Both the position numbers and the translations under genes were made by a program. Positions 5,960-62,780 of a DNA stretch of 64,000 bases are shown piece by piece; positions within the stretch are counted from its first letter, which is position 1, and every line of letters begins with the position of its first letter. This DNA comes from Nepenthes gracilis (lineage: Eukaryota; Streptophyta; Magnoliopsida; Caryophyllales; Nepenthaceae): assembly GCA_033239525.1 (NCBI GenBank), contig BSYO01000030.1, positions 5,493,119 through 5,557,118 of the forward strand, in the 5' to 3' direction. The notes under the pieces are model-generated. The model was not told where the DNA came from. It searched no databases and saw only the letters and a list, made by a program, of their open reading frames with translations.

Positions 5960-8803
5960 TTCCTTATTGTGAGGGATTAGGGCAAGCAGGCCTCACCTCC
6001 ATATTACTCTCCGAGGTGAGTAATATTACCTGTATTATCCGTAGACGGGACCAAAAGTCGACATCCTGCAACTACATTTGAGGATAGATTGTATTCAATC
6101 AACATAATCAAAGGCCAATATCCCGAGGACGGCGGTCATATGATATCATTTCCTCATTGTACAACGCCCCGAGGACGGCGGTCATATCATATCATTTTCT
6201 CCTTGTACAACGCCCCGAGGACAACGGTCATATCATATCATTTCCTCCTTGTACAACGCCCCGAGGACGGCGGTCATATAATATCATTTCTTCCTTGTAT
6301 AACGCCCCGAGGACGACGGTCATGTTATATCATTTTCTCCTTGTACAACGCCCCGAGGACGGCGGTCATATCATATCATTTCCTCTTTGTACAATACATC
6401 GAGGACAACGGTCACATCATATCATTTTCAGTGGTCATTTTATGGCTAGTTTAATGGCTGGATCAATTTACCCAAATTTTATTAACAAAGATGAGTATCG
6501 ATTTGGTCGGGTGACCGGTTCAATGTCGGTTCGATATCCAAATTAGGTCAAATTTAATATCCTAATATCTTAAGATTATCTTAACATTCTTAAGTTGAAT
6601 CGGATGTAGGTTGGGCAATTTAGGGGCCAGTTCGGATGGTCTAAACAAAAAGGCTAAAGCGGTTCATTTAGCTTATCCTTTAGTAGCATATGGGTGCTAA
6701 CACCAAGTTCTTCAAAGGGCCGGTTCACTATTCAATTTAAGGTATTTTTGGACTCAAATTTGTGTGTTGGTAGCTTGACTCTTGTACTAAATAACTTGGC
6801 CGGAGCGGCTCCTGCATCCTCCGGTTTATGGCCGGTTCGGTCGTCTGTTTCCAGACTATCATATTCTACTTCAACAGGAAGGTGCAGTGAATAGTTCTGT
6901 TTGGGAGACCTTTATGGCCAGTTCAAGGCCGGTTCTTAGTTGGTCCATGGAGTTTAATAATAGCTAAAAGACTCAAGTTTAAGAATTGGTTGGGATTGTG
7001 GCCGTTTCCTACCAAAATCTGGCCGGTTCAGGCCTGAGAAATGGCCACAAATTCTGCATCAGCAGTGTTCTTATGCAACCAGTTTTCTGTTACTATCTTG
7101 GGGGCCGATTCGTGACCGGTTTGGGTTCAACTTTTTCAAAGATACACTTTGTTATTATCATGATAATGTCAAGCTATCACGGCTGCCTGTTCAGCCCATT
7201 TGGGCATCGGTTTGGTGGCCAAAAGTTCATATATCAGCAGAATTGTTGAATCTGGCCGGTTGCTGATATGAAGGCCAGTTCAGTGACCGGCTCAACTCGG
7301 CTTTTCGAGCTGTTTGGTCACAACTTAGGTAAGGTACTGAAATTATAGTATACCGAATTTGGGCTCAATTGGACATTGTTTGGTTGGCTGTTTGGCAAAA
7401 GTTCAGAAAATAGTTTCTTGGTCGGTTTAAACTTCAGATTCCAGCTCAACAATTTCATGAAATTTTGGATAATTATAATCAAATTCATACAATTTGCAAG
7501 TATTAGATCAATAATACTTTGCCAATTAACAATGAAAAACAACAAAGAATGAAGAAATCAGAGTACACTTGCCAGCAAATATTCAGATACACCCTTGCTG
7601 TCTTTGGTTTTCTTTCTCCCTTCTGATTTTTCTCTCTGTTTTCCTTTCTGTTTTTCCTTCTTCTCTCCCACGTTTTCCTCTCTTTTCTCACGATTTCCTT
7701 CTCTTTTTTCCCCTCTCTAACTCCCTAACATGACCTTAAATAAAATTAATTGAGAGGCTTACTCATCTCTTGCTGGAAGGAGCTGCTGCCACCTACTTCA
7801 ACAACTTGCAGCTACTGCTGCCGTGGGAGGTGGCTCCTCCAACAGCTGTGAAGAGCTGCTTCCGTGGCTCTTCGTCTTTTCTGATTTATCAGCAATTATA
7901 TATTGCTACTGTGTCGTGTGGTGGTGAGAAGCTGCCGTGAAAAATTCTGCTGTTTCAGCAGTCAACATAAGCAGCTGTGGTTACTTTTATCTTTCTTAAA
8001 ATTGGGCTATTGTTTTATGGTTACAACTGCCGTAAAATGCTGGCCATCAGCTGATTAATTGGTTGCCATGTGTACTTGGCTTGCTGAAGAAAAATGTGTA
8101 TATATATATATTCTACAAAATAAGTGGCAGCTGATTTTGTGTGTTTTTGATGCAGCTTGCCGTGGGGGATTTCCTTTCTTCTTTATATATATTTATATAT
8201 ATATACATATTATATTGCCTCAAGTGAGTAGCTGAAAGCTGTTTTATTTTACTCTAATTTTGACTAAGTGTGTGAGGGAAAATTGCTGCGTGTGCCTTGT
8301 GCTGCTGAAGCAAGTTTGTTACTGCGCTTCTTGCTGAATTCAGAATAATTTCAACATACTATGGAGTGTGTGGAGTGTTAGGATTTATTAATTTTTACTT
8401 AGATAATTTTATTCATACTAATTTTAATCAATCGAACTAATTTCGGTAACTAATCGGGTCTAATTTTCTTGATTAGTTCATCTTGTAATCAGTCGAATTT
8501 AATTATTAATCGAGTGAGAATTGTTTTATCGAATTAATTCCCTATCGTTGATTCTCTCTTTTATTAACCAGTATTGAAATCAGTTTCATTAAATAAATTT
8601 TTATAACATTTTTTCATGAGTTCCTGGCTTTTGGGTTTTAACTGTTCATTATTCTAAATTGTTTTTTACCGATATCCTTAAATCGATGGAAGCTCCAAGT
8701 CCAAGTATTTTATTTTTAGTAATTCTCCAAATGTCGGACTTCTTTGCATCATTTGACCTTGATAAATTATGCTTTACTTGATCAAGAGATCTCGGACTTT
8801 ACA
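5960..8803 (+). mobile_element. Large LTR-like block, same family as the one at 19,555-23,433
   Basis: The block has the same internal order as the better-defined LTR at 19,555-23,433 read on its minus strand: a section full of GGCCGGTTC-type motifs (6,600-7,300), a pyrimidine-rich section (7,600-7,730), a GCTGCTG-rich section (7,780-8,340), an AATCAATCGAACTAATTTCGG section (8,430), then CCTGGCTTTTGGG...CTGTTCATT (about 8,620). It ends ATCTCGGACTTTACA at 8803, where the other copy ends ATCTCGAACCTTACA. That supports 8803 as the 3' end (CA). The left end was not found, so 5960 is a guess just before the 46-bp array. No coding capacity was recognised and the ORFs inside are chance. Confidence 0.55.
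6105..6436. repeat. 46-bp minisatellite, about seven copies
   Basis: GAGGAC occurs at 6125, 6171, 6217, 6263, 6309, 6355 and 6401, exactly 46 bp apart each time. The unit contains CCCCGAGGACGGCGGTCATA then TCATATCATTTCCTCCTTGT. Because 46 is not divisible by three, the apparent ORFs through it cycle through frames and are not genes. Confidence 0.97.
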
Positions 8804-12028: not shown

Positions 12029-12751
12029 TTAACCTTTCCATAATTCAAAAGAAGTTTTTGGAACAACTTTTGTTGGGACCCGATTTAATATATACACCGC
12101 CGTTTTAAGAGCTTCATTCCACAAAGATTTTAAAAGTTTGGAGTTACTAAGCATACTCCTCACCATGTCCAATAATGTTCGATTTTTTCTTTCTATTACA
12201 CCATTTTGGTTCGAAAAACTAGGCATAGTATATTGGACAATAATCCCATGTTCTTGAAGAAACCTTTTAAATGGACCAGGCATTTGTCTATCTTCAGTAT
12301 ATCTACCATAATACTCTCCACATCTATCTGATCTCATAATTTTGATATGTTTTTTTGATTGTTTCTCTACTTCTACTTTAAACAATTTAAAAATATCCAA
12401 GGCTTCATATTTAATATGAAGTAAGTAGAGATACATATATCGTGAGAAATCATCAATAAATGTGATAAAATATTTTGGACCATATGAGTCAATATCAGGA
12501 TTATAAATGTCAATATGTATGATCTCTAATATGTCCAAACTTTTCTTGGCATTTTTCTTAGTCTTGTTAGTCTGTTTTTCTTTAATACAGTCCACACAAG
12601 TTTCAAAGTTAGTAAAATCTAGAGTACTAAGCACTCCATCATTTATCAATCTTTTAATTCTATCAATGGAGATATGATCTAATCTCCTATACCACAATAT
12701 AAAGGAACATTCATTCATAACACATCGTTTAATTTCAATATCAGCATGCAC
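12029..12751 (-). pseudogene. Copia integrase remnant (240 codons open)
   Basis: This is the longest open segment of the copia element. The zinc-binding part is degraded: WYRRLDHIS stands where WHRRLGH is usual, while CVDC is kept. The catalytic core shows IHIDIYNP (first Asp), [14 protein letters not shown] (second Asp region) and [14 protein letters not shown] (Glu), then the usual [13 protein letters not shown] segment (here [15 protein letters not shown]) and the RVPTK region. Integrase inserts element cDNA into chromosomes. It is open over 240 codons but isolated from gag and RT by stops. Confidence 0.9.
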
Positions 12752-12772
12752 AGTATTAAAAGAGGTATTATT

Positions 12773-23438: not shown

Positions 23439-24658
23439 CACGATCCATCCCTACTATCTGCATAAAGTGAGCAATTATCAATTGTTAGTTGGGGAGCCGT
23501 CCTCTTTAACAAAGGAAAGGATTCATATGTGATTACAGTTCCCAACAACAGAACAGAAAAAGAACTTGGTACATTAATCTCCTTCTTTAAGCCATTTGAT
23601 CTTAGCCTTTTGCTGGAGAAAATCAAGTTCCTGAGCTATAGCTTGGAGGTAACCTGATTTAAAGACCCTCTCCTCCTCGTCGGTACCTACTCTAAGTGGA
23701 AGATGAAAGTTCGTCCATTGATATTCCTCCAATGCCTTTCGTGATCTTACAACCTCCTCAGAAGCATTTCCAACTTGATCATTGAGCCTTTTAAGAATCC
23801 TTTTTGTGTTCCTCAACTTGGATATAAGCCTGAATATCGAAACGTTTTGTATTTCCTCTTGATAGGCCTCACGAACAACTAGGGGAAATTGTAGATTCTT
23901 GGTATGAAAATTATTAAATCTATACATACCTTTCCACGCCCATTTCATGCCCTTCGAATATAGCATACAAGGAGAATGATCCGATATTCTAGCCAGAAGG
24001 AATGAAACTTTATATGTCCCAAACTCTAAAAGCCAATTTCCATTAACCACAATCTTGTCTAGCTTTCTGTAGATACAAACGGCCACATCTCTTCCATCAT
24101 TCCATGTGTAGAAGACACTATCATGACACAAATAATTAAAATCACAATCATTGAGATAATTATCTAAGTGCATGGTGCTCCTAGCATTCCAGTTACCTCC
24201 CAGTCCATTAAAAGGCGATCGGATTGCATTAAAGTCCTCCAGAGCAGCCCACGGAACCTCATGTATAGGTTTACTTTCAGCTCATAGGCTGTCCCAAAGA
24301 ACATGTCACTCAATATCCGAGTTAGCCCCATAAATAAAGGATACATAGAATGCCTTATTATTAACTTTGTTGAGTGCTTTTTAGTGAAAAATTTGGTCCT
24401 CTTTAGAGAGAATCTCCAAATCCACATGCCACGAATCCCATCCAAACCATATATGGCTTATAGATGTTATAAAATAATTCATAACCCAATTTCAGTTAGA
24501 AATTAATTGCTTGGTAATTTTATTAGCATTTCTTTCTCTAACTTTAGTTTCAACTAAACCTACAATGGAGTAGCAAGAAGAAAGGATGAATTGCCTAACC
24601 CCGTGTGCCTTGATATGACCATTCTGCCCCGAACATTCCAACATGCCACACTAATCAT
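23439..24658 (-). pseudogene. LINE ORF2: N-terminal endonuclease and linker
   Basis: ORF2 probably starts at the ATG at 24,658 (MISVACWNVRG, the usual plant LINE opening), with a frameshift soon after. LVETKV follows near 24,580. The later endonuclease part is open at 23,574-24,173: FTWNDGRDVAVCIYRKLDKI and RISDHSPCMLY, the latter containing the conserved SDH motif. It then enters the linker QAIAQELDFLQQKAKIKWLK and the TKFF segment. The endonuclease nicks target DNA to prime reverse transcription. The stretch ends at the target site of the LTR insertion. Confidence 0.85.
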
Positions 24659-24663
24659 GAGGA

Positions 24664-26900
24664 TGAGTTGAAGAGAACAATTTCCTTTTAGGTCCCCTTG
24701 GTTTTTTTCAATATTGACTTAAGTGGTTTTTCCTTGCATAGAGGCATTCCCAACTCTGACAAACCACGAGATTCCAACTGAGAAACTGAATCCACTTCAG
24801 TTGTGAATTTTTGAAGTGAAGCAATTTGCTGCCCAACAGCAGCATCAGTCGCAGAGTAATCAGACGGCATCTACTCTATAGCAATAGGCTGTGTGGGGGG
24901 ATCTTGCTCACCTTGCATTGGAAAAACCAATGATACAGTACGCTGCCTTTCAGCTCTAACAATCGATAGCCCACCATCCAAAGAGTGCTGCTGTTTTGCA
25001 TCCACGGTTGCCTGCTGATCAGAAGCACTAACTGAATGGCCGGTTAGGGAGCAAGCTTCATCACTTGCTAGGAGAGCAGGTGCATCAGCTGAAGTACCAC
25101 TCAATGAATCAGATGCACCGTAATCAGGAAGAATGGCACATGCATTAGTAACAGCCTGCATATCAACATGAGTAGAAAGTTAAGTACCTGCACCCTCAAG
25201 AGTTGGAGGGTTTTCAATGGAAGGCAGCTTATCCTTCACACAACATGAAGGAACCATGTCTACAAAAACATCAAACTGGCCATCTGTGGGGCAAGACTCA
25301 TCACCCTCTTGGAGGGCTGGAAATGCATTGGCAATAACCACTATTGCTCCCAGAATAAAACTGTCCTGATCACTAACTCTGTGAACGTGTTTCTTCAGAC
25401 CTAGAATTGCCATTTTCAAGTGAGTACTTGGCAGCGTTCAGCCTGTAGGATGATATATCTCTTAGGATTGCATTGGGAAGAACTATAGCCAATTTGTTGG
25501 CAAATTCCACATCGAATAGGTTTCCGTTGATAATCAATGTCCACCTCTATAACTTGTTCAATCTCTAAATCTGAACATCTTCCTATATTCAACCAGACTT
25601 TGGAAGGTAGAGAAGCAGTAGCACCGACCTCTATGCAGACTTCAGCGAAACCCATGCGCTCCATTCTAGCCATGGTGGCATCTAACTAAATGGGCTTTCC
25701 TATAGTACTCGCCAACTAAGCCCAAATGGAGTCTGGAATTCCACAGGTACATTAATCAAATTGATCCAAATCGGGAAGGATTTATGCTCATCCGTAGACA
25801 ATGCCATCCCAAGTTTCCATCATTTAAGAAACAAAGTTCTCCCCGCAAATACCCAAGGACCATTTGCCAAATATTTATCCATCATCTCCTGGGAGGAGAA
25901 CTAAAGAAAAAGAATCCATTATCATTTTCAGCCACAAAACAAATCCCAAATCGTGTCCATATTTTTTGAGCAATGAAGTTCACTATATGAAAATTCAGTG
26001 GTTTCTCATAGAAATACCCAACCAAAGTGGCACTCCATACATCTTCCCCCTGTTTAAGCACTTCTTTTAGCTTGGTTATTTCTATGACATCCCAATCAAT
26101 TTTCTGTGGGGGGAAATATTTTAGAGCCAAGCTATTTAAAGGTTCCTCCTACTGAACAATAGTGGACCAAGAAGGCTGACACATACCTCCCAACACCACT
26201 TGAGAAGCCCTTGAGATACATGGGAAGGAGAAAGAATCTTACCCACATTCGTTGCAATTTTCTAATTTGGCTCCCCCAAAACATCATCCGAAATTGAAGA
26301 ACTGCCCACCATCTGAGGAGCACACATTGAGTCAACCTTGTCACTAGGAAGAGAAAGTGCTTCAGTTTCTTGTGAAGCTGTCGGAAGAACAGAGAGACGC
26401 CTCTTGTGTTCTTTCGAATCTTGCTCAGAAACCTGGGGAATCCCAACATTCTCCATTGAAAGCGAATTATGGGCTACCACTACATTCTCCATAGAAAGTT
26501 GAAGGCTTTCATCCATAACGTCTTGACCAACCAGTAAAGTTGGAAACTTCGATGTAGAAGGAGCCGCCCTGTTAGATGAAACTGGAACATGTCAAGAAAC
26601 AGGGAGAGGCGAAAAGCGATCCAGGGAGAGATAAGGCTGAGAGGACAAAGTAGCCACAGATTTGTCAGATGGAAAGCTGGAATGAGGATGGCCAAGAGAG
26701 AACTGTGGACTAGACGCGAAGGCTCCTGTGGAGGTTAATGATGATGCCAGAAGGGCGACGCCACTGGAGGACACCGGCAGGGATGAAACAACAGTTCGGG
26801 GGCATGAAGAGGGAGACTGAGGAGAGGCCAGCGGACACCCCCAGAAGGCCAACCATAGCTGACTCCGCAGGGGGAAGCAATCTACAGTAGAAGTGGCGAA
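24664..26900 (-). pseudogene. LINE ORF1-like protein with CCHC knuckle (DUF4283 type)
   Basis: Read on the minus strand with frameshifts, this shows STDEHKSFPIWINLINVPVE near 25,780, then FAEVCIEVGATASLPSKVWL and a zinc knuckle CGICQQIGYSSSQCN near 25,490, the usual plant LINE ORF1 order. Ser/Gln-rich low-complexity tails follow at 25,419-24,688, ending KPLKSILKKTKG, a basic end typical of this protein. The upstream part (26,516-26,262) is Ser-rich. The protein would bind LINE RNA. At least four stops or frame changes are present. Confidence 0.75.
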
Positions 26901-26937
26901 GGGCGAATGAAAAAACTCGAGAGAGAAGGGAGAGCCA

Positions 26938-26942
26938 CTCTC
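26938..26942. repeat. Target-site duplication (CTCTC), left copy
   Basis: CTCTC abuts the LTR terminus TGATACAG at 26,943 and is identical to CTCTC at 31,129-31,133 on the other side of the element. Confidence 0.9.
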
Positions 26943-27239
26943 TGATACAGTCTCCATGTAGTCGCCTGCGATGATGAGAAAAGTGCAGCGGAAGGAGAGA
27001 TTTGCAGAGGAGGGCGAGGGGAGCGTGCGCGAGAGAAGGAGGAAAAGGGAAATAGGGAGAGGAAAATCGAGGGAGAAGGACAGAGTGAAGAGGGAGACGG
27101 AGAGAGAGAGAGAGAAAATTAGAGTAATAATTTCTTTTTTTCTCATTACGGATGTAGCCTTATAATTATAGGAGAATGGGTAACTGAAAGAAACAGAGAA
27201 CGGGAAAACGGGAAACGGCGTAATATTAGGCTCGTAACA
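26943..27239 (-). repeat. 3' LTR of the gene-capturing element
   Basis: This matches the 5' LTR along its full length with roughly 20-25 substitutions or small gaps counted by eye (about 93% identity), indicating an insertion that is not recent. A GA/CT-rich tract at about 27,090-27,117 is the main length difference. The ORF 26,592-27,146 through it is a chance fusion of LTR and LINE. Confidence 0.9.
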
Positions 27240-27376
27240 TTGCCCCGTCCATCAAAAGAACATTGTCCTTAAGGTTAGACACGAAGATAAAATTCGAAAG
27301 CATCATGATCCAACGCAATTCAATATTTCCCCGGGTCCCATTGTCGTCTGCATTTGTCGTAGCTCCACTCGTTACC
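27240..27376 (-). other. Element tail before the 3' LTR, possible integrase C-terminal remnant
   Basis: The minus strand ends SNLKDNVLLMDGAMLRA and a stop inside the LTR start. From memory, many plant Ty3/gypsy integrases end in a NLEDKV-type sequence next to the polypurine tract, so this may be the original 3' coding end of the parent element. The match is short and not conclusive. Confidence 0.4.
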
Positions 27377-27526
27377 CTGCAAGATGTTGACAGAGTGTTC
27401 AAACTGGCCGCATTTTTTGTACAGCATTGTTGCTGTCTGCAGTGTATCCAAATTATTAGGACCCAGTTGAAATATCTGCTCATAGGATTCAGCAGCTTTC
27501 TCATAATTTCCAATCTCTATGTACCG
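27377..27526 (-). pseudogene. Captured TPR-protein fragment (TFIIIC subunit-like)
   Basis: Fifty uninterrupted codons starting RYIEIGNYEKAAESYEQIF and ending KKCGQFEHSVNILQ have the helix spacing of tetratricopeptide repeats (NYEKAAESYEQIFQLGPNN). They resemble from memory the TPR region of plant TFIIIC subunit 3 / tau131 (SFC4-type), a subunit of the RNA polymerase III assembly factor. The preceding DILVLH, read in the BIG frame, may be part of the same fragment displaced by a single-base frameshift. It is in a different frame from the BIG fragment and has no start codon of its own, so it would not be made as a protein. Identification as a TPR is firm; as TFIIIC it is probable. Confidence 0.6.
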
Positions 27527-29079
27527 TGAAGCACGAGGATATCTAAGAGTAAGATCTGGTCTGCCAAACTACCATATTTTTCGCCATCTTCATCCCTTAT
27601 TACCACAGCACTAATGATTTTCCTCATGTCTTCGTTTGTGGTTACTTCAAAGAGATTCCTGACGGAAATATTGTTGAATTGTGTCTTCTTAACAGTCCTA
27701 GTGGAACCTGGCCCAGGACAATTTATATAGCCCATCAACACATATACAACACTCGGTAGTTGAGACCTCACAACTGTGAACAAAGTGACAAACAGATCCA
27801 CTAGACCTTCTGCTGCCACAGAAGTAGTTTCAGAATCCCATGTACTACATTGAGTAAAATGACTGGAAGTTAGTGACTCCTCGTCATCAGTTATTTTGTT
27901 TTCGTTCTTGTCGTCCACACTATTGAATATGGGGGAAATGACATATTTGAAAAGAAGACTCCAAAAAGGACGTGAAAAGAGACGGTAGTGATCCCCGAGA
28001 ATGTTAAAGAGCACTTCCAAGGAACCTTTTCGATAGTTGCTGCTGGGATCGGATGTCAATTTTGATAACCCAGAGAGTAGAGGCATCCAAAAGGAGACAT
28101 TTTCATCTTTAGTGGTAAAATCGTATCCATCAAAACCACCCTCCGTGCTCGCTAAGATGTATGAATAATCATCCTTCTTATCCTCATTACAGACTAATCC
28201 CTCTTCTGCAAGTTTGACAGCACAAAACCTGAGGAAAGCAATGGCATTGAGGCTAACATCACTGTTAAATCGACTACTTGTGAAAGTGATTAGGCATCGA
28301 ACGTAGTTAGTGAAAGTCATCAATTCCATAGTCTCAAAGGCCAATGCCACTACACTTTTCCTCTCATCAGCTGCAACAACTGTGAAAACCATAAACATGC
28401 TTTTCCAGCCAGATTTCACATTGCTGACACGAATGAGGACCATCTGGGAAATGCACCGAACTATAAATTCTCTACTTTCAGTAGAGCTGCTTTTCTGCAT
28501 AACAACAACAAATGGCCTCAAAAATTCATTTTGAAATTTATAATTTGCAAGCTCTTCGCGCTCTAGAAATTCCATTGCAAGCTGCCGCAATGAATACATC
28601 ACAAAAATTGCTACTGAGAGGTTCTCTGACAAGCCAACTGATACAAAGAAGTCTGAAAGAACATTCCATATGCGAGACCAAACTAGTCTGATCCGGTTCA
28701 TATTGTAGTGCGCAACTTCAACAACTTTTGTGAGGCTGAACACACGAGGATCGATAGGAGACTACAACTCTGACATCGCAACTTTGCAAAGGGCCTTCAC
28801 AAATGATACGATTGCGTCGCTGTTTAGCCTTTGGCTATGGGCAATTATGTGATTCAACTCATAGCTTCCAATTTGATCAAGCAGATTCAAGTTTGAAATG
28901 AAGTTATTGACTTTCTCTGGAGTCACTAGTTTGGAAGCGTGATGGGCAAATCGCAGAGTGCGGTGCGAAGCTGAAGGGCACTGTAACAAGAGATAACAAC
29001 GACACGTGAAGCTCATTTGCATCCTCATAATTGTCACGAGCAATTCCAAAGGACTATGGGCCAATTTCAACTGCCACAT
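27517..29079 (-). pseudogene. Captured BIG-type ARF guanine-nucleotide exchange factor fragment, intron-free
   Basis: About 520 codons in one frame read as the C-terminal (post-Sec7, HDS) part of plant BIG1/BIG2/BIG3 proteins, which activate ARF GTPases at the Golgi/TGN. Landmarks are LNLLDQIGSYELNHIIAHSQ, FVKALCKVAMSEL, TKVVEVAHYNMNRIRLVWSR, REELANYKFQNEFLRPFVVV, NVKSGWKSMFMVFTVVAADE, SDVSLNAIAFLRFCAVKLAE and VRSQLPSVVYVL. One in-frame stop (TAG at 28,762-28,764) sits where the family has Gln, a single C-to-T change. After AFETM, about 14 codons usual in the family are missing before TFTNYVRC. The catalytic Sec7 domain is absent. Similarity fades after about 27,690 (GPGSTRT). No intron interrupts the reading, so the copy came from spliced RNA. 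The 408-codon part downstream of the stop is fully open. Confidence 0.88.
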
Positions 29080-30828
29080 CTTCCTCTATTAGCTACAATG
29101 TTACAGCCCTCTGGATCTTGATTGCTGTTTCTGCGGTTGGAAATGTTTGCAGTTGGGATGAGGGTATGATGCGGAACAGAATGGCATCATCTCGGTAGAA
29201 CAAAAGTATCTCCGCAGAACAGCAACAACTCGGCAGAACAGAAGCATCACGGCAATACAAATGAATCGCGGTAGTTAGAGTCAAGTGCAATCTCAACTTT
29301 GCACATGTGTGTGAAACTAACAGAGAATACATGAGAAGAATGTATGAACGCCAACCCAGCAATTCAACCGTAAATGGAAATGTAGTCCGCAATTCGGTAG
29401 GATGGTTGTAGCGCCCGATTGCTCCGTCTGGGGCCTCGTCCCAAACCATCGAAATTTTCCAAGAAGTGTCGTCAAATAATGTTGCCGTTTCCAGGGGTGC
29501 CCATTCAGGAAAAACTTCATAATGAAATCGTGGGATGATAGACAGTTTATCTGCAAGAGTGGCTAGCAATTGTGCCTGTCTAATTGTCCAGACAAGGAGG
29601 TGAAATTGCCAGCGAATACAATTTTTCTCGATGCCCCAATTTGATGTGCGCAGCGCTTGTAGTTGAAGAAAAGATGTTGCGTGCAGCGTTCGAAATTGCA
29701 ATTGGAAGGAATCTCGGTTTGAGCTACAGTAGGACCTCGGTCCTGCGCTACAGTTGAACCGAGAGGAAATGAACCGAGGTGATGGAGAAGGACTACGCAG
29801 AGAGTAGGGGAGCCATTGTCGATTCTTCCCACACGAGCATGGATTCTTTCCACAAGAATCCAACATGCTTTTCTCAAGCATTGGAAGAACAGAGGAAATC
29901 ACGGACAGAGATGCTTGAGCAAGAGTCGATTCTTTCGACTGTGGCACCTCATCATCTCCACCAAGGCTACCAAGGCCCGACAATTTCATAGCCAATTGGT
30001 CGCTTCGTTGCTGTTCGATTCGGGCCAAGTACAGCAAACTCTCAGCGAGGGGTGGGAGAATTAGTTTAGTGGTGGATGCGTTAGAGGTGTTACCGGATGC
30101 AGGTGACAAGTTTGGTAGATATGCGTGAGGCTGTTGTAGGTGGATTTGGTTCAAGGGAGGGAAAATGTCCGTGTGGGTGGTTCGAATCTGTGTGATAGTA
30201 GAGAAGGAGGAAACGATTCGAGCAGCAGGTGATGGTACTGACGCCGTGCTCGAAGTAATGGAAGTGTGAGGAAAATTTGCAAAAGTGGAAGCCGAAATCG
30301 GTGATGAAGTTGAAGACGACGAGAAACTTGTAGTTGACAACGGTAGTCGTCGATGAGGTTGATGCGGTAATGCCAAATTTGTTCAGAGGTGGGAGTATAA
30401 TTGGCGATTTGCGGTACAGGTGGTTGTACGGAACCAGCGATGGAAGCAATTTCTGGTTGAAGTAAGGGAACAGGAAGAACGGTGTTGACGTCTAGTAGAA
30501 TTGGTGGCATTCTGAGAGAGATTTGGGTTGTAGTTTGAGGAGACAGGTGTGGACTTACACTTGAAGGCTCCATGAACGAATTAGTAGGTAAGAGCAACGT
30601 GGGCGCCAGAGTATTTCGCTCAAATCTTGTGAGCGATTGCCGGATGTCAGCCATGAAATGTTGAATTTGTGCTGTTGTTGAAACCGTGGTGGACAAGGTG
30701 GCTCCACATCTGTCGGTATCACGTCAGAGACCCTTCATCTCGTTGGCCAGTGCGGCGACAGACCTCTCGAGCGCTTCGAGAGCTTGTGCTTCGATCTCCT
30801 CTGCATTTCTCTCAATGAAAGCACCAAC
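29080..30828 (-). pseudogene. Gag-leader-like and unidentified region of the gene-capturing element
   Basis: The first part after the 5' LTR reads ERNAEEIEAQALEALERSVA then, after a stop, MADIRQSLTRFERNTLAPT, resembling the coiled start of gypsy gag proteins. A long Ser/Thr/Pro-rich stretch follows in overlapping frames (30,696-30,151 and 30,376-29,093, the latter 427 codons open). No gag core, protease or zinc knuckle was recognised. Near 29,460-29,380 APDGAIGRYNHPTELRTTFP distantly recalls the chromodomain-like end of gypsy integrases, but frames do not agree. What the 29,080-29,800 part encodes is not known. Confidence 0.45.
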
Positions 30829-31128
30829 TGATACAGTCTCCATGTAGTCGCCGGCGATGATGAGAAAAGTGCAACAGAAGGGGAGATTTGCAGAGGAGGG
30901 CGAGGGGAGCATGCACGAGAGAAGGAGGAAAAGGGAAATAGGGAGAGGGAAATCGAGGGAAAAGGACAGAGTGAAGAGGGAGACGCAGAGGAAGAGAGAG
31001 AGAAAATTAGAGTAATAATTCCTTTTTTTTTTCATTACGGACGTAGCCTTACAATTATAGGGGAACAGGTAACTGAAAGAAACGGGAAACGAGAAAACGG
31101 GAAACGGCGTAATATTAGGCTCGTAACA
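30829..31128 (-). repeat. 5' LTR of the gene-capturing element
   Basis: This is a 300-bp direct repeat of 26,943-27,239, beginning TGTTACGAGCC and ending CTGTATCA on the minus strand. The right edge meets CTCTC at 31,129-31,133. Confidence 0.9.
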
Positions 31129-31133
31129 CTCTC
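31129..31133. repeat. Target-site duplication (CTCTC), right copy
   Basis: This matches 26,938-26,942 exactly and abuts the LTR terminus CTCGTAACA. Confidence 0.9.
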
Positions 31134-61439: not shown

Positions 61440-61720
61440 GACTTGATGGTCGTGGGCGAACAGTCCTCTGATTGGGTAATGGACTCACGCGCTTGGTCCA
61501 TGTTACCTCCGTGAGAGAATCGTTTTCTCCACTTATGCTCCTTGTGCCCGGTGAGTAATGAGAATGGGCAGCGATAGCGGGCGTCCGAGTTCATCGGACG
61601 AGGAGATATCACGTTGGTGATGAGTACTGGAGCCCGGCTGACTTTGAAGGACGTCCGGCACGTCCCTGACATCAGGCTGAACATCATCTCAGTTGGGTGA
61701 CTGGATGATGAAGGTTACTG
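61440..61720 (+). pseudogene. Copia protease remnant with altered active site
   Basis: The frame 61,284-61,514 reads WVMDSRAWSMLPP and a stop, where copia proteases have D-S-G-A. The Gly is Arg, and a frame change follows, so the aspartic protease could not fold its active site. Downstream text (GARLTLKDVRHVPDIRLNI-like) is in other frames. Confidence 0.7.
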
Positions 61721-61748
61721 CAGCGTCTTCTGTGACGGCAGTATCAAA

Positions 61749-62780
61749 ATGACCAAGGGCTCCATGGTCATTGCCCGAGGAACTAAGGCATCTGGCCTTT
61801 ATATCTTGAAAGCCCAGGCTGAAGTAGCTGAGGTGAATGCCACCAGGAGTGCGGAGTCCTCGGATCTCTGGCACAAGAGGCTCGGACACATGAGTGAGCG
61901 TGGCATGGATCACTTGGCTAGGAAGGGTCTCATCCCTGAGGTGGATGGAGACATGTCGAGGACGTGTCCTCACTGCATGGCGGGGAAACAAAGAAGAGTC
62001 TCCTTCTCCAGAGACGTAACTTCCAAGAAGTCCGAGATCTTAGAGCTTGTACACACGGACGTGTGTGGCCCTCTCCGGGAGAAGTCTTTTGAGGTACACG
62101 TGATGCTTTGTGACCTTCATAGACGATTGCTCGAGGAAGTCAGGTGTTTCCATGAAGACCAAGGACTGTGTCGCGGAAACTTTTCACAGCCCACGTCCTT
62201 GTTGAGCGGGAGACCGGGAGGAGACCGAAGGCAAGAGGAGCGACAACGGTGGCGAGTACATTGACAGTTTAATGCCTATTGCAGAACCCATGGCATCAAA
62301 CATCGAAGACTTCACCAAAGACGCCAAGGTTGAAGCTGGTGGCCGAGAGGATGAACCGCACTCTCATGGAAAGGATTAGGTGCATCTTGCCCGAGGCAAG
62401 GTCGCGAGGATCTTTTTGGGCCGAGGCGTTGAGGACGGCCGCCCATGTTATTAACCGCTCACCTGCGCAAGCCTCCTGCACGGGAAGTTCCCTGAGCTGA
62501 TTTGGACCAAGGAAAAGAACCAAGATCTGAGTCATCTGGACTTTTTGGCTGCAAGGCCTTTGTCCATGTTCCGAGAGATGAGAGGACCAAACTGGAGCCA
62601 AAGACACTACAATGTGTTTTTCTAGGCTATGGTGAGGAAGAATTTGGGTACAGACTTTATGACCCAAAAACAAAGAAGCTGGTTCGTTCCCGCGACGTGG
62701 TCTTCATTGAGGACGAGACCATAGAGGACGTTGGGAAAGATGTGAAGTCTCTTCCAAGACTCCCGGACGGACATGATTGA
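61749..62780 (+). pseudogene. Copia integrase
   Basis: The zinc-binding part is complete: LWHKRLGHMSERGMDHLARK with CPHCMAGKQ. First catalytic Asp is in LELVHTDVCGPL. The frame breaks near 62,090, and second-Asp and Glu regions occur in shifted frames: a degraded GGEYI region near 62,250 and ERMNRTLMERIRCILPEA at 62,350. C-terminal RDERTKLEPKTLQCVFLGYG lies at 62,570. At least three frame changes make it inactive. Confidence 0.88.

Follow-up and report, generated by a model that had tools for sequence, protein, structure and literature searches.

How many host genes can a long terminal repeat (LTR) retrotransposon pick up, and can the resulting mosaic spread as a unit? This question is raised by a 4.2-kb element of Nepenthes gracilis, which lies in a 64,000-nucleotide stretch of contig BSYO01000030.1 (positions 5,493,119 to 5,557,118 of the forward strand, assembly GCA_033239525.1; hereafter, the window). 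The original prediction, drawn from the letters alone, described it as an LTR element carrying two captured host genes, a BIG-type ARF-GEF and a TPR protein. Our analysis leads to a broader reading, to which we give a probability of roughly 0.78: a non-autonomous LTR element acquired spliced host mRNAs one after another through template switching, and the chimera then spread. That an LTR element captured host coding sequence is well supported, and four unrelated host genes are indicated by protein comparison instead of two, the pieces of a GLR3-like glutamate receptor and of starch branching enzyme I (SBE I) having been missed before.

The predicted boundaries were borne out by direct-repeat search and alignment. 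The identified cargo and the reading direction are on the minus strand, and the element is delimited by a 300-bp 5' LTR (30829-31128) and a directly repeated 297-bp 3' LTR (26943-27239), both with TG...CA ends. The target-site duplication CTCTC is present on both flanks (26938-26942 and 31129-31133) and abuts the LTRs exactly. The aligned LTRs share 276 of 297 bases and differ by 20 transitions, 1 transversion, and 3 gap columns. As had been predicted, no polymerase was found: Pfam detected no reverse transcriptase, integrase, protease, RNase H, or gag domain in ten minus-strand open reading frames (ORFs) of the element, the plus-strand ORFs being unscanned, and we therefore term the element non-autonomous. 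When the element was compared by blastn (E 1e-3) with the remainder of the window, no second copy appeared.

The largest piece of cargo, at 27697-28935 (minus strand), is strongly identified by sequence comparison as BIG, which we take to be of the BIG1-4 type. It matched Pfam PF09324 (HDS domain, E 4.1e-30) and the Sec7 chain 8ucq_B (E 8.7e-45). A protein search with it returned 122 proteins, and among the best 120 the ten that followed the window's own model (P0002-P0011) were 58-65% identical to the piece; two of these ten carry functional names, P0005 and P0010, both BIG protein 1. The presence of BIG was thus correctly predicted, but its extent was not: around the HDS domain we found about 413 codons instead of about 520, and the 523-residue frame covers BIG plus its neighbours.

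The remaining pieces are short, and their assignments, which likewise come from sequence comparison, are weaker. Upstream of BIG in the reading direction, at about 28936-29101 (minus strand), the GLR3-type piece was recognized via two other N. gracilis protein models, P0065 and P0124. The window matches P0065 with 85% identity over 103 residues (tblastn), and P0065 matched plant GLR3.4 (7lzh) with E 0.0086, as did P0124, which has the GLR piece too, with E 6.1e-4. Downstream of BIG lies an open frame of about 137 nt (piece X, 27560-27696, minus strand), so the BIG and TPR pieces are not adjacent as predicted; with X between them and two further genes indicated, the arrangement of two adjacent captured genes was rejected. 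The TPR piece (27380-27559, minus strand) is in a different frame from BIG. Its best natural chain is yeast tau131 (E 9.7e-5), followed by OGT (3.1e-4) and human GTF3C3 (3.4e-4), which agrees with the predicted TFIIIC likeness except that OGT is as close as GTF3C3; designed TPR proteins outscored tau131, and all Pfam TPR matches fell under the curated cut-offs. A probable likeness to the plant subunit also favours TFIIIC. The last piece, SBE I (27290-27379, minus strand), consists of two collinear blocks corresponding to residues 541-555 and 630-644 of the rice protein, with the intervening stretch missing (E 1.8e-6 when both blocks are taken together; the first block by itself gave 0.0032, and a separate comparison 0.009).

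All four identified pieces (GLR, BIG, TPR, and SBE) are in one sense, that of the element, which agrees with the report that captured sequences are usually in the gag/pol sense (PMC7264820). Such cargo could also have been assembled by other transposons. One alternative is that a Helitron or Pack-MULE first built the mosaic, which an LTR element absorbed later; several short same-sense pieces do resemble Helitron cargo. Both kinds of element capture fragments of many plant genes and amplify host gene pieces as cargo (PMC13317346), as the element studied here appears to have done, but they are DNA transposons without LTRs. Pack-MULEs also contain introns along with exons, whereas the maize LTR element Bs1 carries exons only, as do terminal-repeat retrotransposons in miniature (PMC4717578). 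No inverted repeat of at least 25 nt was detected inside the element, Helitron ends not having been searched for; between 24000 and 34000, the one inverted pair was weak (37 nt, 70%) and lay outside it.

The original prediction had also called the captured sequence intron-free. As a proxy for the introns of the donor, proteins were aligned to the BIG frame, and 114 non-Nepenthes models, many of them from metagenomes, passed E 1e-10; positions were tallied where at least two models started, stopped, or had inserts or gaps. At residue 126, 9 of the 114 models break (6 from named plants), three of them with inserts of 14, 30, and 38 residues. Nine models also break at residues 233/234 (3 from named plants), four with inserts of 24-31 residues, and one further insert of 49 residues occurs at residue 236. 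The inserts at 126 and 233/234 look like retained introns in these alignments, and the window's copy passes both positions without insertion. The clusters at 129, 163, 171, 196, and 215, where models begin, were excluded from the count, as was that at 254-264, which is largely due to a 14-codon deletion in the window's copy. The breaks at 294/295 (3 and 12 models) and 336-340 (33 models) were not counted as signs of introns, since the divergent linker next to them is a place where local alignments tend to start and stop. The comparison lends indirect support to a spliced template, for the BIG piece only. The lack of insertions at the two positions also weighs against the Helitron or Pack-MULE origin, given the introns that Pack-MULEs hold, and we consider that origin unlikely.

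The resemblance of the BIG piece to spliced mRNA might also point to processed pseudogenes made by a long interspersed nuclear element (LINE) and inserted successively into the LTR element. An ORF nearby (23574-24281, minus strand) appears to resemble a piece of plant LINE ORF2, and had no Pfam match. However, LINE retrocopies normally keep the 3' end of the mRNA, whereas the identified pieces here are same-sense and internal, and the six joins inspected contain no run of more than five A; we consider successive LINE insertion very improbable. Template switching between co-packaged RNAs fits the same features, because same-sense internal pieces abut, no A run exceeds five at those six joins, and the ends of the element are kept.

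A different possibility is that the locus is a transcribed, still functional chimeric host gene, flanked by two LTRs merely by chance. There is a public gene model here, Nepgr_027772 (P0001, 600 aa), which is identical to the locus over 393 residues. Placed at 26592-28701 (minus strand), with its tail positioned by comparison with ORF 26592-27251, it starts in BIG, skips the other cargo, and then crosses the 3' LTR to end in flanking DNA outside the element. The cargo is also broken: the GLR piece has two stops, BIG has one in-frame stop (28762-28764) and a 42-nt (14-codon) deletion, the SBE I piece has one stop, and the frame changes between BIG and TPR. The 14 residues absent from BIG are present in most relatives that span the site (12 of them in P0010). 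Together with the exact abutment of CTCTC on the LTRs, these features speak against a functional gene; we regard this as the least probable of the alternatives, and Nepgr_027772 is probably a spurious gene.

The LTRs point in the same direction. Their 20 transitions, out of 21 substitutions, fall in CG (5), CHG (3), and CHH (12) contexts. The Kimura two-parameter divergence of 0.076 corresponds to 2.9 or 5.4 million years at assumed rates of 1.3e-8 or 7e-9 substitutions per site per year; with 20 of the 21 changes being transitions, this age is no better than an order of magnitude. The LTR divergence, the transition excess, the stops, and the frame breaks point to an inactive, decayed copy, from which probably no functional protein is made.

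If the chimera was mobile before it decayed, its joins should recur elsewhere in the genome. We found 11 further N. gracilis protein models with pieces of the element, on nine other contigs as told apart by length, all differing in length from the 14.5-Mb contig of the window's own model: P0012, P0035, P0057, P0065, and P0104 from the BIG search and P0121-P0126 from a search with the family leader (LGSLGGDDE...PKESTLAQASLSVISSVLP..., 29684-29995, minus strand). The annotation identifiers of these 11 models are Nepgr_018982, 022611, 028204, 017185, 030779, 022518, 017309, 021035, 003638, 023832, and 013062. The leader search, which scored the 7992 candidates sharing most words, returned eight proteins, all from N. 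gracilis (P0121-P0126, P0065, and P0104); the leader proper is common to P0121, P0122, P0123, P0124, and P0126. Joins were compared all against all between the models, and by tblastn with the window. The GLR|BIG join (...YA[IV]AHH|..KLVT...) is common to the window, P0035, and P0065, so that transposition of the chimera as a unit, as originally proposed, is supported at the protein level by models on two other contigs. A second join, GST|BIG (EVMQLEV|MLD[QR]IGSYEL), is common to P0057, P0104 (GST theta, E 1.4e-16), and P0125. A 19-bp tandem array of 3.5 copies (29188-29254) encodes a repetitive peptide, YCRDASVLPSCC... (YCRDASVLPS...), that is also present in P0065, P0104, and P0125, and in the latter two it precedes GST. 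P0057 starts inside GST, and at its end it carries the SBE motif RGNEWSFDKYRR (E 0.004 over 12 residues). In this branch, GST stands in place of GLR and the first BIG codons of the window, the order being otherwise similar, a pattern that points to gain or exchange of cargo at a time when BIG was already present.

Other models combine the leader with different sequences. P0124 has the leader and GLR without BIG, P0121 and P0122 share a leader|Agenet join, and P0122 (CNGC15, E 5.5e-73) and P0123 have the leader with CNGC-like sequence; the order leader|Agenet|CNGC is complete in one model and partial in two. The Pfam scores for Agenet (P0121 and P0122) and UMP1 (P0121) were under the cut-offs. 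P0012 adds BIG pieces only, and P0126 shares 44 residues of leader and nothing else. The Pfam families MFS (P0123, E 8.9e-25) and AAA (P0126, E 1.3e-8), as well as UMP1, may represent neighbouring host exons fused by gene prediction. In P0123 (Nepgr_021035), an MFS transporter and a part labelled GDPGP1-like in precomputed annotation are fused to the leader and the CNGC-like stretch, either by capture or through mis-joined neighbours. As far as protein models go, a combinatorial family is plausible. A stronger version, which we hold tentatively and at somewhat less than even odds, is that this N. gracilis LTR lineage is a combinatorial shuffler of host exons, with shared leader parts and interchangeable cargo (GLR3, GST-theta, BIG, TFIIIC-like TPR, SBE I, Agenet, CNGC15-like, and perhaps others) on at least 10 contigs, its copies having gained, lost, and exchanged spliced host pieces by template switching over many rounds.

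Serial capture by an LTR element, the reading that we favour, would have proceeded as follows. Pol and most of gag would have given way to segments of spliced host mRNAs (GLR3-like, BIG, X, TFIIIC-like TPR, and SBE I), with host mRNAs co-packaged with element RNA in particles from an autonomous relative. Reverse transcriptase would have changed templates repeatedly within one lineage, and later copies would have retained some cargo while gaining or losing other pieces, such as GLR in one branch and GST in another. The chimera would then have been mobile as a unit via its LTRs, primer site, and polypurine tract. The boundaries of the element, the order and sense of its pieces, their decay, and the return of joins in protein models from other contigs are direct observations, whereas packaging, template switching, mobilization in trans, and the serial order are what we infer.

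Several observations weigh against this reading. Intron loss was deduced indirectly, for BIG alone, from other gene models rather than from the donors. The window's own 32-residue GLR stretch had no PDB match, no Pfam receptor domain was detected in P0065 or P0124, and the GLR identity was thus reached through these two relatives. The second SBE I block alone is not significant (E 110), and the TFIIIC label is narrowly ahead of other TPR proteins. The best PDB match of piece X had E 0.82, and among seven candidate proteins its own model alone contained it. The other family members are known as predicted proteins alone, whose joins may in part be mis-predicted introns, and a Gypsy assignment of the element depends on one motif that would mark the end of pol.

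Elements of this kind have precedents. Bs1 likewise holds pieces of several unrelated host genes between its LTRs, namely three (H+-ATPase, xylan endohydrolase, and beta-1,3-glucanase), and its hybrid gene is reported to be transcribed and translated (PMC13317346), whereas that of N. gracilis is broken. The N. gracilis element differs further in its four indicated genes plus piece X and in its apparent relatives with other cargo. In pepper, retroduplicated NLR genes reside in LTR elements, most of which have no coding potential for gag/pol, and this implies help in trans (PMC5664825); the NLR genes too are host genes in non-autonomous LTR elements, but they centre on one gene family, whereas unrelated pieces are joined here. 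Gene fragments inside LTR elements have also been counted in maize (425 intact elements; PMC2774510), rice (672 captured genes), and sorghum (1343; PMC3726574). In the related N. mirabilis, Gypsy elements account for 35.5% of the genome, and LTR gene capture goes unmentioned in the parts of that article covered (PMC12244726). At the level of titles and abstract openings, with subscription papers largely outside the scope, the literature gave no description of the N. gracilis family. The kind is already known from Bs1, and what is new would be four or more genes and the swapped cargo. LTR elements are known for picking up single genes, and at least four unrelated genes with recurring joins and exchanged pieces among relatives would record serial template switching in a single lineage. 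If this is true, the order of capture could be reconstructed, and bulk exon shuffling by LTR elements, beyond Helitrons and Pack-MULEs, becomes testable; as many as a dozen gene annotations in N. gracilis may represent mosaics of mobile elements. Among natural candidates for gene shuffling, this element is unusually clear.

The rest of the element includes sequences resembling a primer site and a polypurine tract, each where it would be expected. A probable primer binding site, TGGTGCTTTCATTGAGAG (30809-30826, minus strand), follows the 5' LTR after 2 nt and presumably matches tRNA-Thr; no tRNA gene was found in the window. About 1.7 kb of leader precedes the cargo, and the part outside the family leader, at 29996-30808 (minus strand), is perhaps decayed gag, a tentative assignment because the leader ORFs gave nothing relevant in Pfam. 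At the other end, a purine-rich stretch, GATGGACGGGGCAA (27240-27253, minus strand), abuts the 3' LTR and by its position is probably the polypurine tract. Translation of 27240-27276 (minus strand) gives NLKDNVLLMDGA..., probably the last codons of a Gypsy-type pol, which appear to resemble the ends of plant Gypsy polyproteins; the element is probably of Gypsy origin. Elsewhere in the window, Pfam identified Copia-type fragments at 12029-12772 (minus strand; GAG-pre-integrase and integrase core) and 61701-62264 (plus strand; GAG-pre-integrase). At 6020-6546 (plus strand), open frames in two phases consist of a recurring motif (YHFLLVQRPEDGGHIISF...) and may represent a tandem array.

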